DNA of 38,335 nt from a virus: IMG/VR virus record IMGVR_UViG_3300032288_002537, positions 1 to 38,335 of that record. One strand, written 5' to 3'. Below are positions 31,310-35,804 of the stretch, one piece after another. The position numbers were made by a program, and so were the translations under genes. The notes under the pieces are model-generated. The model worked only from the letters and a program-made list of their open reading frames with translations. It made no database searches and was not told the DNA's origin. Each line of letters begins with the position of its first letter. Position 1 is the first letter of the stretch.

Positions 31310-31347
31310 CCCCGGTTTACCGACACGGGGAGGAAAGGGAGCAAAAA

Positions 31348-32760
31348 GTGTGGCTGAAATTACCACAATCAGTTTGTTTGCCGGCGCAGGAATGCTTGAC
31401 GTCGCCGTCGATATCGCTACTGGAGGAACTTGCACGCTCGTCCGCGTGGAGAGGGAAATACCTGCGGCCGGAATCCTGGCGGCGCGTGCTGAAAACGGGA
31501 GTATTTCAGACGCTGCTATCTGGTCTGACGTGCGAACCTTCGGCGGCCGCCCGTTTAATGGCCGAGTGGACGGCATCATTGGAGGCTTCCCATGTACCGA
31601 CCTCTCCGTTGCCGGACGACAAGCCGGGCTCGACGGAGACGCCAGCGGACTGTATTTCGAGTACGTCCGAATCATTCGCGAAGTTCAGCCCAGATGGGTT
31701 TTTATTGAAAACGTCCCGCCAGTTCTCGCTTTTCCAACAGGAGGAACCGTACTGCGAGAACTTGCCGCGCTCGGGTTCAATGCGGAATGGGGAACTATTC
31801 GAGCGTCCGATGTTGGCGCCCCGCATCGCCGCGACCGGGCTTTTATCCTGGCCTACGCTGCATGCGGGGGTATTCAACGACGGGGAGGAACCGACCCAGT
31901 TCCACTCGCGGCAAGAACAATTGGCGAAGCAGAAATTCAGCACGCCGCTGGCGATGCACGTAAAAACATGGCCCACGCCACGCAGCGAGGACTCGGAGAG
32001 TTGCGGGAACCATCCTGGCGCGGTGGACTCGCTGACGGGGGCGACGAGGCAGTGGGCTACGCCGAATGCGCGGGACGACCACAACCCGTCAACGCCGGAT
32101 TCGCCGCGGACGGCGCGGAAGCTGGAGCAGGGCTGGACCATCGACCTGAACGAGCAGGCGGCCTGGTGGACAACCCCGCAAGCTCACGATGCGGCGGGTG
32201 GCAACCCGGAGAGAGTGGGCCGATTCGGGACGAAGCACGGCGGGGCAAACCTTGCGGACGATGTGACGCTCTGGAAGACTCCCGATGTCCCGAACGGCGG
32301 GCGCACGATGAGCGCGGCGGATGTGGCCGCGAACGGTGCGACGGACAAGGGGAAGCGACAAGTGGGGCTAGAGAATCAGGCGCGGTTTGCGAATTTTGCG
32401 GCTACCCAATCGACCCATCCGCCGTCCGCTACGGTTGCGCCAACTGTGAAGGAGAAGGCTTGGCCAACACCGAAGAGTCGGGACAGCAAGAGCGCGGAGG
32501 GCGAAGCGGGCATGATGCGCCAATCGCCGGATCTCAACGTGATTGCTTGCCGCTCTTCCCTCCTGGCCCCGGAGACGCCGACGCATGGCAGCGAATCCTT
32601 GCCGAGCGGCCCGACCTCGCGCCGGCGGTTGAATCCGAACTTCGTGGATTGGCTGATGTCGCTGCCTCCAGGGTGGACCGACTACGCGCCGGTGGAAACG
32701 GCGTCGTGGTACTCCAGGGTGCGTATGCGTTTAGAGTGCTTGCTGAACGAGCGGGGCTGA
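31348..32760 (+). CDS. overprinted WPTP-repeat protein in the +1 frame of the methyltransferase
   Basis: 470-codon open frame nested in the methyltransferase gene; true start uncertain (GTG 31348 or a later codon). It reads like a protein family, not noise: LPRSGSMRNGELFERP, three or more W-[PAT]-T-P-x-x-x-D units (WPTPRSEDS, WATPNARDD, WTTPQAHDA, WPTPKSRDS), and an end LNPNFVDWLMSLPPGWTD. I know this style from phage proteins encoded near Dcm-like genes, but I cannot search here. Function unknown. Confidence 0.6.
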   Translation: MWLKLPQSVCLPAQECLTSPSISLLEELARSSAWRGKYLRPESWRRVLKTGVFQTLLSGLTCEPSAAARLMAEWTASLEASHVPTSPLPDDKPGSTETPADCISSTSESFAKFSPDGFLLKTSRQFSLFQQEEPYCENLPRSGSMRNGELFERPMLAPRIAATGLLSWPTLHAGVFNDGEEPTQFHSRQEQLAKQKFSTPLAMHVKTWPTPRSEDSESCGNHPGAVDSLTGATRQWATPNARDDHNPSTPDSPRTARKLEQGWTIDLNEQAAWWTTPQAHDAAGGNPERVGRFGTKHGGANLADDVTLWKTPDVPNGGRTMSAADVAANGATDKGKRQVGLENQARFANFAATQSTHPPSATVAPTVKEKAWPTPKSRDSKSAEGEAGMMRQSPDLNVIACRSSLLAPETPTHGSESLPSGPTSRRRLNPNFVDWLMSLPPGWTDYAPVETASWYSRVRMRLECLLNERG

Positions 32761-32768
32761 AATTTTAA
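31350..32768 (+). CDS. C5-cytosine DNA methyltransferase (Dcm-type)
   Basis: 472 aa from GTG 31350 behind GGGAG. Motif I is ISLFAGAG (7-14), motif IV is GFPCTDLS with catalytic Cys82, motif VI is ENV (120-122), motif VIII is HRRDR (159-163), and the C-terminal motif is GNGVV (449-453). The long middle (170-430) has the Ala/Gly/Arg-rich phage insert and a C-x2-C...C-x2-C cluster (CEFCGYP, CANCEG). It would methylate cytosine, probably against restriction. The +1 frame is open along almost the whole gene and also looks coding. Confidence 0.93.
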   Translation: MAEITTISLFAGAGMLDVAVDIATGGTCTLVRVEREIPAAGILAARAENGSISDAAIWSDVRTFGGRPFNGRVDGIIGGFPCTDLSVAGRQAGLDGDASGLYFEYVRIIREVQPRWVFIENVPPVLAFPTGGTVLRELAALGFNAEWGTIRASDVGAPHRRDRAFILAYAACGGIQRRGGTDPVPLAARTIGEAEIQHAAGDARKNMAHATQRGLGELREPSWRGGLADGGDEAVGYAECAGRPQPVNAGFAADGAEAGAGLDHRPERAGGLVDNPASSRCGGWQPGESGPIRDEARRGKPCGRCDALEDSRCPERRAHDERGGCGRERCDGQGEATSGARESGAVCEFCGYPIDPSAVRYGCANCEGEGLANTEESGQQERGGRSGHDAPIAGSQRDCLPLFPPGPGDADAWQRILAERPDLAPAVESELRGLADVAASRVDRLRAGGNGVVVLQGAYAFRVLAERAGLKF

Positions 32769-32806: not shown

Positions 32807-33445
32807 ATGAGATACAAACCATGGGTGCCGGGAGATCCGTGCAAGCGGTGTGGCGCGCCTATACCGACGCTGGCTGATAAATTCCAGCCACACAACAGCA
32901 TCTGCAAGCCATGCGGTAACGCGCGGCAAGCGGTCAAAAGAGACGCGCTACGCGCTAAAGCCGCAGTGCCATGTACGCAGTGTCAGCGCATGATGCTCAC
33001 ATGGACCGAGCGCCGGCGCGGGACATGCAAAGCGTGCCGGGCAGACAAACGCTGCGCGTGCGGGTCCGTGCTGCTACAGAGCGACATGCGCTATGCCCGC
33101 TGCGCCATGTGCCGAAAGACAACGCGCGCCGAACGGAAAGAGATCCGCTGGTGCGGCTGTGGCGGCCAGATTGAACAGAAGCGCAGGTATGCGAAGATGT
33201 GCGCAAAGTGCGCAACGAAGGCACGCACGGAGGCCGGGCGCAAAGGGGCCGCAACCATGCGGACGATGTTGGGCAACAGCCGCCCAATGGCAACGCACGC
33301 CGTTCAGGTGCCGATGAATACGGGCGAGTATCGTCCGCCGATGACGCGGGCGGAGGCGCTGGCGCAGGATCGGGTGAACGATGACCCGGCGCGGTCGGCG
33401 TGGATTGACTCGGTGTGTGCGCGGCGGGTGGGGGTGCGGGTATGA
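32807..33445 (+). CDS. multi-zinc-ribbon protein (212 aa)
   Basis: ATG 32807 behind AAAGGGAG. Eight Cys pairs: C12/C15, C33/C36, C56/C59, C74/C77, C83/C85, C99/C102, C116/C118 and C132/C135, enough for about four zinc sites. The region 35-140 is Lys/Arg-rich. Probably nucleic-acid binding. The C-terminal third (PPMTRAEALAQDRVNDDPARSAWI) is non-metal. ATGA overlap with the helicase. Confidence 0.75.
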   Translation: MRYKPWVPGDPCKRCGAPIPTLADKFQPHNSICKPCGNARQAVKRDALRAKAAVPCTQCQRMMLTWTERRRGTCKACRADKRCACGSVLLQSDMRYARCAMCRKTTRAERKEIRWCGCGGQIEQKRRYAKMCAKCATKARTEAGRKGAATMRTMLGNSRPMATHAVQVPMNTGEYRPPMTRAEALAQDRVNDDPARSAWIDSVCARRVGVRV

Positions 33446-34812
33446 GCGGATACCGGGCGTTTCTCGACGGCAAGCACGTGCAGCCGCAACCATCCGGAAT
33501 TTCCGGAGAGTTCGACTTGAACGGCAAGCTATTCGGCTTCCAGCGGCAAAGCATCACGCGGGCGCTGAACGCTGGCAAGTTCGCACTATTTACTGAGTGC
33601 GGTAGCGGCAAGACCGCCATGCAATCGGAATGGGCCCGGCAGGTCTGCCAACACACGAGCGGCGATGCGCTGATATTGGCACCGCTGGCCGTGACGGCTC
33701 AAACTGTAGCCGAGGGCGCTAAGTTTGGCATCGAGATAACGCAGTGCCGCAGCCAGAAGGACGTGCGGCCCGGCGTGAATGTCGCCAACTACGACATGCT
33801 GAAGCACTTCGACGCGGGCCACTTCGACGCGATTGTCTTAGACGAGTCGAGCATCCTAAAAAACTTTACCGGGGCAACGCGGCGGCTGCTACAGGATTCT
33901 TTCGCTAGCACGCCCTATAAGCTCTGTTGCTCGGCTACGCCGTCGCCAAACGACCACATGGAGCTCGGGAACCACTCTGAGTTTTTGGACATCATGAGTG
34001 GCGGGCAGATGCTGATGCGGTGGTTCCTGAACGACACTATGAAGGCGGGTGGGTATCGGCTGAAAGGACACGCTGAAGCCGACTACTGGCGCTGGGTAGC
34101 GTCGTGGTCGGTGTGCATGGAAAAGCCGTCAGACCTTGGCTTTTCTGATGACGGGTGGGTTATGCCAGCGCTCAACATTCGTGAGGAGATTGTTGCTGTC
34201 GATCAATCCATCAACGCCAACGGTCAACTATTCCGGGTGGCGGATGTTTCGGCAACTGGCTTACATCGGGAGATGCGGTTGACGGCGCCGGTGAGGGCCG
34301 CGCGTGTTGCCGAGATCATCGGCGACTCTAAGGAGCCGTGGTGCATCTGGTGTAACACGAACTATGAAGCCGACGAACTGATGCGTGTGATCGACGGCGC
34401 TATCGAGGTGCGCGGCGATGAGCGCACGGAGGCGAAGGAAGAAAAGCTCCTCGGGTTCACGAACGGCGCGTTCCAGCGTATCGTCACAAAGCCATCAATC
34501 GCCGGTTTCGGCATGAACTGGCAGCACTGCAATAAGCACATCTTTTGCGGGCTGTCCTACTCCTACGAACAGTTCTACCAGGCCGTGCGCCGGTCGTGGC
34601 GGTTCGGGCAAACGCGGCCGGTTGACGCCTACATGGTCATCGCGGAGACGGAAGGCCCCGTCCTCAAAACGATCCGCGAAAAGCAAAAGAAGCACGAAGA
34701 AATGAAAGCGGCCATGGTTCACGCGATGGCGGCAATTCAAAACGGTACAGGGCGGCGTCAGCTTGCCTCTGCCGTCGGCACAAAACAGATGAATCTTCCG
34801 AGGTGGATCTAA
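33442..34812 (+). CDS. SNF2-like DEAD/DEAH helicase
   Basis: 456 aa. Motif I is ECGSGKT (52-58), Ia is APLAV, motif II is DESS (134-137), motif III is SATP (164-167), and motif VI is QAVRRSWRFGQ near 390-400. Overall short SF2 architecture like phage replication/repair SNF2-type helicases. ATP-driven translocation on DNA. It overlaps the following methyltransferase gene by one base (TAATG). Confidence 0.88.
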   Translation: MSGYRAFLDGKHVQPQPSGISGEFDLNGKLFGFQRQSITRALNAGKFALFTECGSGKTAMQSEWARQVCQHTSGDALILAPLAVTAQTVAEGAKFGIEITQCRSQKDVRPGVNVANYDMLKHFDAGHFDAIVLDESSILKNFTGATRRLLQDSFASTPYKLCCSATPSPNDHMELGNHSEFLDIMSGGQMLMRWFLNDTMKAGGYRLKGHAEADYWRWVASWSVCMEKPSDLGFSDDGWVMPALNIREEIVAVDQSINANGQLFRVADVSATGLHREMRLTAPVRAARVAEIIGDSKEPWCIWCNTNYEADELMRVIDGAIEVRGDERTEAKEEKLLGFTNGAFQRIVTKPSIAGFGMNWQHCNKHIFCGLSYSYEQFYQAVRRSWRFGQTRPVDAYMVIAETEGPVLKTIREKQKKHEEMKAAMVHAMAAIQNGTGRRQLASAVGTKQMNLPRWI

Positions 34813-35804
34813 TGAACGTGATTTTAGACGAGCGGCACGGCCGCAACTGGGCGCTCTACAACGGCGACTGCTGCGAAGTCATCAAGGGTATCCCCGACGA
34901 GTCGGTAGACCTGACGGTGTTTTCGCCGCCGTTCTCCAGCCTGTACACCTACTCCGACTCAGAGGCCGATATGGGCAACTGCGCCAGTGATGAGGAGTTC
35001 TTCGCGCACTTCGGATTCCTCGCGCCGGAACTGCTTCGCGTGACGACAACGGGGCGGCTGTGCGTGATGCACGTCAAAGACCTGCCGACGTATCGGAATA
35101 GCGACGGGGCCAGCGGCCTGCGGGACTTTCCCGGTCAGTGCATCGCCGCCATGGAGCGCGCCGGGTGGACGTTCCATAGCCGAGGGACGGTGTGGAAGTG
35201 CCCGGTGACGGAGCGGGAGCGGACCAATAACAACGGGCTCCTGCATAAGACCGTCATGCGTGATTCTTCGCAGATCCGGCAGGGAATGGCTGATTACGTG
35301 TTGGCATTCCGCAAGACGCCGCCAGGTGACAATCTCAGCACGAAGCCGATTGAGCGGCCGACTGGGTTCGAGCGGTATATCGGCGACGCGGCGCAAGATC
35401 CGCGCGAAACCGACCAGCACCCTTCGAAATACGCCCGCAAAGGCCGCGACGGGCGGACAAGCGTGGAGATTTGGCGGCGGTACGCGGAACCTGTTTGGTG
35501 GGATATCGACCAAACCGACGTGCTGAACTTCCGCATTGCCCGCGACGAAAAGGATGAGAAGCACATCTGCCCGCTGCAGCTCGGGTTGATCCGGCGGTGT
35601 TTAGAGCTGTGGTCGTCGCCGGGGGACGTCGTGTTATCGCCGTTCGCTGGCGTCGGCTCAGAGGGGTTTGTTGCGCTGGACGAGGGCCGCAAGTTCATCG
35701 GGATTGAGCTGAAGCCGGGTTACTTTTCGACGGCTGTAAAGCACCTGGAAAGCGCGGAGGCGTATGCCGGTGCTCAAGGAGGGCTATTCGATGCCATCGA
35801 CTGA
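34812..35804 (+). CDS. beta-class DNA methyltransferase (N4-C or N6-A)
   Basis: 330 aa. Motif IV is SPPF (38-41) near the N-terminus and the SAM-binding motif I is FAGVG (278-282) near the C-terminus, the order of beta-class enzymes; SPPF with Ser favours N4-cytosine, but adenine cannot be excluded. A large target-recognition region lies between. Directly coupled to the helicase gene. It probably shields phage DNA from restriction. Confidence 0.9.
   Translation: MNVILDERHGRNWALYNGDCCEVIKGIPDESVDLTVFSPPFSSLYTYSDSEADMGNCASDEEFFAHFGFLAPELLRVTTTGRLCVMHVKDLPTYRNSDGASGLRDFPGQCIAAMERAGWTFHSRGTVWKCPVTERERTNNNGLLHKTVMRDSSQIRQGMADYVLAFRKTPPGDNLSTKPIERPTGFERYIGDAAQDPRETDQHPSKYARKGRDGRTSVEIWRRYAEPVWWDIDQTDVLNFRIARDEKDEKHICPLQLGLIRRCLELWSSPGDVVLSPFAGVGSEGFVALDEGRKFIGIELKPGYFSTAVKHLESAEAYAGAQGGLFDAID

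Follow-up and report, generated by a model that had tools for sequence, protein, structure and literature searches.

A putative phage C5-cytosine DNA methyltransferase encoded as two polypeptides in overlapping reading frames

The window analysed here, a virus record of 38,335 bases in its entirety, derives from a tailed phage, judged by the presence of terminase, portal, head and tape-measure genes. Between positions 31348 and 32768, two ORFs are simultaneously open on one strand, one in frame 0 (MT) and the other in the +1 frame (OV); the features mapped at this locus lie on the + strand. MT (31350–32768; GTG start at 31350, stop at 32766–32768) encodes 472 aa and matches PF00145 over residues 5–169 (E 3.6e-31) and PHROG 363 (E 8e-49), suggesting that it is the large-domain (alpha) subunit of a C5-cytosine methyltransferase. 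OV (31348–32760; GTG start at 31348, stop at 32758–32760) encodes 470 aa and is proposed to be the recognition/motif IX (beta) subunit.

The ORFs begin at overlapping start codons, GTGTG (31348–31352), in which the GTG of OV (31348–31350) and that of MT (31350–31352) are 2 nt apart. A Shine–Dalgarno-like GGGAG (31337–31341), read from the sequence, precedes the OV start by 6 nt and the MT start by 8 nt, and 97 of 147 relatives also have a Shine–Dalgarno-like motif ahead of their paired starts. Among 168 relatives, 89 have an ATG or GTG precisely 2 nt upstream of the MT start and 23 have one precisely 4 nt downstream of it, with no more than 8 at any third-frame offset. The open +1 frame reaches a median of just three codons 5′ of the MT start in the relatives. 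The simplest reading of this region would be that MT and OV are initiated separately at paired starts.

MT encodes the putative catalytic half of the enzyme. Motifs I–VIII (ISLFAGAG ... GAPHRRDRAFIL) occupy 31356–31859, with the codon of the catalytic Cys82 at 31593–31595. Motif X (RVDRLRAGGNGVV...) is also found in frame 0 (32670–32765; changes at MT positions 1/2/3 = 284/272/548), as is a further stretch conserved in this frame, PLFPPGPGDADAWQRILAERPDLAPAV (32535–32621), where 200 changes silent only in MT were observed against 112 expected. The AlphaFold2 model of MT is confident at residues 1–170 (pLDDT 88–98 over motifs I–VIII) and about 451–470 (pLDDT 94–97), with a pLDDT of about 36 in the insert between them, and its top fold matches are M.HaeIII and M.HhaI (Foldseek, E about 1e-14). 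A SAM-binding motif I, a PC motif IV, an ENV motif VI and motif X thus occur within one fold, as in PF00145 members, and the best reading of MT is a C5-cytosine methyltransferase with predicted 5-methylcytosine activity. An earlier note on this DNA had credited frame 0 with all C5-methyltransferase motifs, which proved to be wrong: a simple search for motif-IX-like patterns drew a blank in the MT frames of all 147 relatives, and motif IX was found in the +1 frame. MT does not, therefore, combine motif IX and a recognition domain in the same polypeptide, as is usual for a monomeric C5-methyltransferase.

A zinc-ribbon-like sequence, CEFCGYPIDPSAVRYGCANC, is located in the MT frame of the insert (32388–32447; MT 347–366), and only one of the 147 relatives (L142) has the same. 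At this position, the informative frame may be MT rather than OV.

Motif IX (LNPNFVDWLMSLPPGW), missing from MT, is borne by OV, the C-terminal sequence LNPNFVDWLMSLPPGWTD (32629–32682; OV 428–445) reading as this motif. Changes across this stretch number 384/170/164 at MT positions 1/2/3, and in single-chain relatives it is positioned between the units and motif X. The +1 frame also carries five W-x-TP units (31969–32574), the proposed target-recognition cassettes: WPTPRSED (31969), WATPNARD (32053), WTTPQAHD (32167), WKTPDVPN (32272) and WPTPKSRD (32461), starting at OV residues 208, 236, 274, 309 and 372, respectively. OV proteins of relatives mostly possess two to six such units, with a median length of 34 aa. 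Each W-x-TP has a shadow in frame 0 (e.g. MAHATQRG for WPTPRSED, VGYAECAG for WATPNARD and LANTEES for WPTPKSRD), because TGG-NNN-ACN-CC in the +1 frame reads as [MLV]-x-[DNHY]-x in frame 0. The repeated units, the orderly C-terminus and the coincidence of the units with insert motifs of the methyltransferase had been described in the earlier note, and our analysis bears out all three. Near-identical units were detected in L166 (25/27 residues) and L059 (31/35 residues), the catalytic domains of which are merely 44% and 43% identical, respectively. The units behave in the manner of exchangeable recognition modules and may recognise DNA.

Two PHROG families annotated as ‘DNA methyltransferase’ match OV, one in the middle (phrog_1008) and one at the C-terminus (phrog_31772). 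No Pfam family matched OV above the cut-off, and sequence and profile searches against the PDB returned no relevant match and no link to any solved C5-methyltransferase. A match to the MS2 coat protein (E 0.005, profile positions 63–89 only) was taken as chance or shared composition, and Pfam NinB was rejected, being under the cut-off (E 0.02) and found in just 4 of 70 members. AlphaFold2 modelled OV alone poorly (mean pLDDT 55.7, pTM 0.26), the model having no PDB relative; on account of this low confidence, evidence from the fold of OV was dropped. The OV N-terminus (about residues 1–120) displays weak constraint of its own.

Relatives were retrieved by searching with either protein or with an alignment built on it, and a set of 175 loci was defined in which motifs I–VIII and X share one ORF and motif IX lies in the +1 frame. 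In 159 of these, the +1 frame runs open between motifs I and IX (mean 382 codons), against 5.6 expected when MT is recoded synonymously at its native codon usage; the +2 frame is open in none. When motifs I–VIII alone are considered, the +1 frame is open in 159 loci against 20.5 expected. Of the 16 exceptions, the majority simply start OV a few bases later, and stops in the +1 frame are rare: L045, L140 and L216 are the sole relatives in which OV is truly interrupted after motif I, and these are possibly decayed or possess an internal OV start. The reverse test gave a similar picture: with the OV codons recoded, frame 0 would be expected to stay open across the insert in 7.3 of 183 loci, and it does so in 174. 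Both frames are therefore kept, and, by this comparative evidence, MT and OV are both real genes; the two frames of about 1.4 kb that the earlier note had seen open together extend far beyond what chance would give.

Motif IX is positioned at +1 of motif X in 202 of 208 non-duplicate loci, a count biased toward loci carrying motif IX, as part of them were retrieved by the OV motif IX pattern. Among the non-duplicate loci retrieved by MT-only patterns, all except one (L148) keep motif IX at +1 of motif X. Related viruses and prophages numbering well over a hundred share the arrangement, and the family extends across phages and proteobacterial genomes. Plasmid searches returned one OV relative, the rest being mostly ordinary methyltransferases.

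Substitutions counted in disjoint pairs of relatives, which are phylogenetically not fully independent and include loci selected on the OV motif IX pattern, revealed that constraint alternates between the frames along the DNA. Across motifs I–VIII, changes at MT codon positions 1/2/3 number 2625/1826/4501, with a peak at the MT wobble position that is also seen across motif X. The variable insert (31860–32534), which appears to be a passive linker in MT and holds the W-x-TP unit array in OV, displays the pattern 1431/517/407, i.e. changes are densest at the OV wobble position, and 65 of 66 disjoint pairs favour OV. As the first codon position of MT is the third of OV, these counts mean that selection acts on MT across motifs I–VIII and X, but on OV across the insert and motif IX. 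Amino acid identity in the same blocks of the insert is 86% for OV versus 61% for MT. A finer count in eight close relatives returned the same alternation and indicated that the MT 121–170 region is doubly constrained. The substitution phases place each frame under selection, lending support to the earlier proposals that both proteins are conserved and that the variable insert of the methyltransferase is shaped by the +1 protein.

The single-chain actinophage methyltransferases Rita gp76, Hamulus gp68 and Ailee gp4 share the modules of this locus (motifs I–VIII, x-PTP-xxxD units, in these proteins L-PTP-xxxD, motif IX and motif X) but encode them in a single frame. In Rita gp76, the MT profile covers residues 5–383 and the OV profile residues 202–353 (E about 1e-17), with no reversed decoys among the matches. 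Actinophages also possess split pairs (Kristoff gp77/76, Vash gp32/33 and Chocolat gp80/81), in which alpha carries motifs I–VIII and beta, in the +1 frame, carries the units, motif IX and motif X. As in the window, beta overlaps alpha in the +1 frame in the Kristoff and Vash pairs; however, their units and motifs IX and X lie largely beyond the overlap, and motif X belongs to beta, whereas it remains in frame 0 in the window's family. The earlier note had made its proposal depend on homologues of OV outside the long overlap and on stops in the OV frame being infrequent among relatives. Such stops are rare, as described above, and the homologues exist, with units and motif IX present in Vash gp33, Chocolat gp81 and Rita gp76.

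Cytosine methyltransferases of an E. coli prophage (L277) and Salmonella phage SW3 (L039) likewise have GWPTP units and LNPxLSxWLMGxPPEW in the +1 frame, and their substitutions track the +1 phase at codons 150–250. They differ in possessing +1 stops near the N-terminus, which leave a shorter, nested second ORF. L271 (Allokutzneria) combines the modules in a third way, with motifs I–VIII, IX and X in frame 0 and the PTP unit array in the +1 frame. In Mycobacterium phage Seabastian (L043, 1501–2300), a frameshift splits the catalytic domain into two annotated DNA methylase genes, and the +1 shadow with NPVWIEWLMGFPPNWT persists. L011 (1920–3752) has a LAGLIDADG-like insertion (AAGLIDGEGCFGV; Pfam E 0.003, under the cut-off) in the OV frame, and the MT frame is open through the insertion too. 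The OV frame of Acidovorax phage Alfacinha1 (gp46; L002, 1501–2634) is annotated as a cytosine-specific methyltransferase, leaving the true catalytic frame unannotated, and the annotated gene of Synechococcus phage Ssp-JY39 (L041) is also the OV frame.

Taken together, our analysis makes it highly probable that a single C5-cytosine DNA methyltransferase is specified here in the form of two polypeptides, whose overlapping frames share one start region. MT would form the large domain, responsible for SAM binding and catalysis (motifs I–VIII plus X), and OV the small domain, consisting of a row of W-x-TP target-recognition units and motif IX. Essential segments would alternate between the frames, with either frame merely open where the other holds information. 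Because motif X stays with motifs I–VIII in frame 0, the split between MT and OV would follow the domain boundary of C5-methyltransferases. At the level of comparative sequence, the maintenance of both frames, the alternating constraint, the motif split, the single-chain relatives and the exchange of units are established. We infer that MT and OV are both translated from the paired starts and would associate into an active enzyme, that several units may confer several specificities and that the enzyme may protect phage DNA from host restriction.

The earlier note had interpreted OV as a protein in its own right, overprinted on a methyltransferase that is complete without it, in which case it might represent a functional anti-restriction factor or regulator. 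Such a role would be consistent with the weakly constrained N-terminus of OV and with its having neither a Pfam family above the cut-off nor a solved relative. However, MT lacks motif IX, and its recognition region is disordered and unconstrained; OV has both motif IX and the conserved recognition region, and single-chain methyltransferases unite the two sets, containing the OV units and motif IX as parts. The annotation of the OV-matching PHROG families as DNA methyltransferase also argues against an independent function, which we consider unlikely. That OV is untranslated, its openness and motifs arising as side effects of GC content, codon usage and the conservation of MT, is barely credible: a GC content of 61% does leave many non-coding frames open, with numerous long ORFs in the window, and the middle region of OV partly mirrors motif VIII of MT, but synonymous recoding falls far short of the observed openness (5.6 predicted versus 159/175), the OV codon phase governs substitutions in the insert and motif IX, and the start codons are conserved. 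Both a pure GC artefact and an unrelated overprinted protein were rejected on the substitution-phase data.

Programmed ribosomal frameshifting could also join the frames into one fusion enzyme, without separate initiation. The fused and split versions of the enzyme in actinophages imply that frame changes at the junction of motif VIII and the insert have occurred in evolution. However, with motif X (frame 0) located downstream of motif IX (+1), two shifts, first +1 and later −1, would be required for a complete fusion, and OV retains its own start codon next to that of MT; we regard frameshifting as very unlikely. The two-polypeptide enzyme with paired starts remains our preferred reading.

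An enzyme of this kind has a precedent in M.EcoHK31I (YGGCCR), the small ORF of which is read in an alternative frame within the large ORF. Its large subunit carries motifs I–VIII and X and its small subunit motif IX, with the recognition domain assigned by prediction to the large one (PMC3404938). In the C5-methyltransferase fold, the large domain comprises motifs I–VIII and X, and the small domain the recognition region and motif IX (PMC3404938). The locus resembles M.EcoHK31I in the distribution of these motifs between two chains and in the overlapping alternative frame of the second. Unlike in M.EcoHK31I, the selected variable region lies in the +1 protein rather than the large subunit, and the ORFs are coextensive, their starts lying 2 or 4 nt from each other. 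The locus would work like M.EcoHK31I, to which it is likened by the described motif layout, with the recognition domain placed differently. In split methyltransferases of the M.AquI type, alpha carries motifs I–VIII and beta the rest, whereas here motif X is absent from the second chain and shares frame 0 with motifs I–VIII.

The recognition units of the Bacillus phage enzymes SPR and SP-beta follow one another in the region that separates motif VIII from motif IX. These multispecific methyltransferases have several recognition domains, proposed as a defence against several restriction enzymes (PMC5923457). The window's enzyme is comparable in its several putative recognition units, which are modular and exchanged, but SPR and SP-beta are single polypeptides read in one frame. 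Literature searches, partial in coverage and with most subscription papers outside it, returned no earlier description of this phage arrangement. Relative to its precedent, M.EcoHK31I, the locus is new in that its ORFs are coextensive and start as a pair, that the variable region under selection belongs to the second frame, that this region is exchanged in modules and that the family is so broad.

We lean towards extending this reading to a whole class of phage enzymes, in which two structural domains would be encoded in interleaved frames from a shared start. Specificity would reside in exchangeable second-frame cassettes, spread by recombination only if the first frame stays open and each selected for compatibility with both frames. 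Long same-strand overlaps are regarded as rare in dsDNA phages, and annotation suppresses them; the present family would be large and open to testing, with an overlap that respects the boundary between the domains of a well-understood enzyme. By implication, many database entries of this type that are named ‘DNA cytosine methyltransferase’ would be half enzymes, with the recognition half unannotated or the wrong frame annotated, and specificity predictions from frame 0 alone would read a spacer. The Salmonella phage SW3 and E. coli prophage relatives make direct tests practical.

Just 3′ of the locus (33415–35804), the window encodes an SNF2-like helicase and, after it, an N6/N4 DNA methyltransferase (PF01555). 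An SNF2-related gene is also positioned downstream of the cytosine methyltransferase in the E. coli prophage relative L278.
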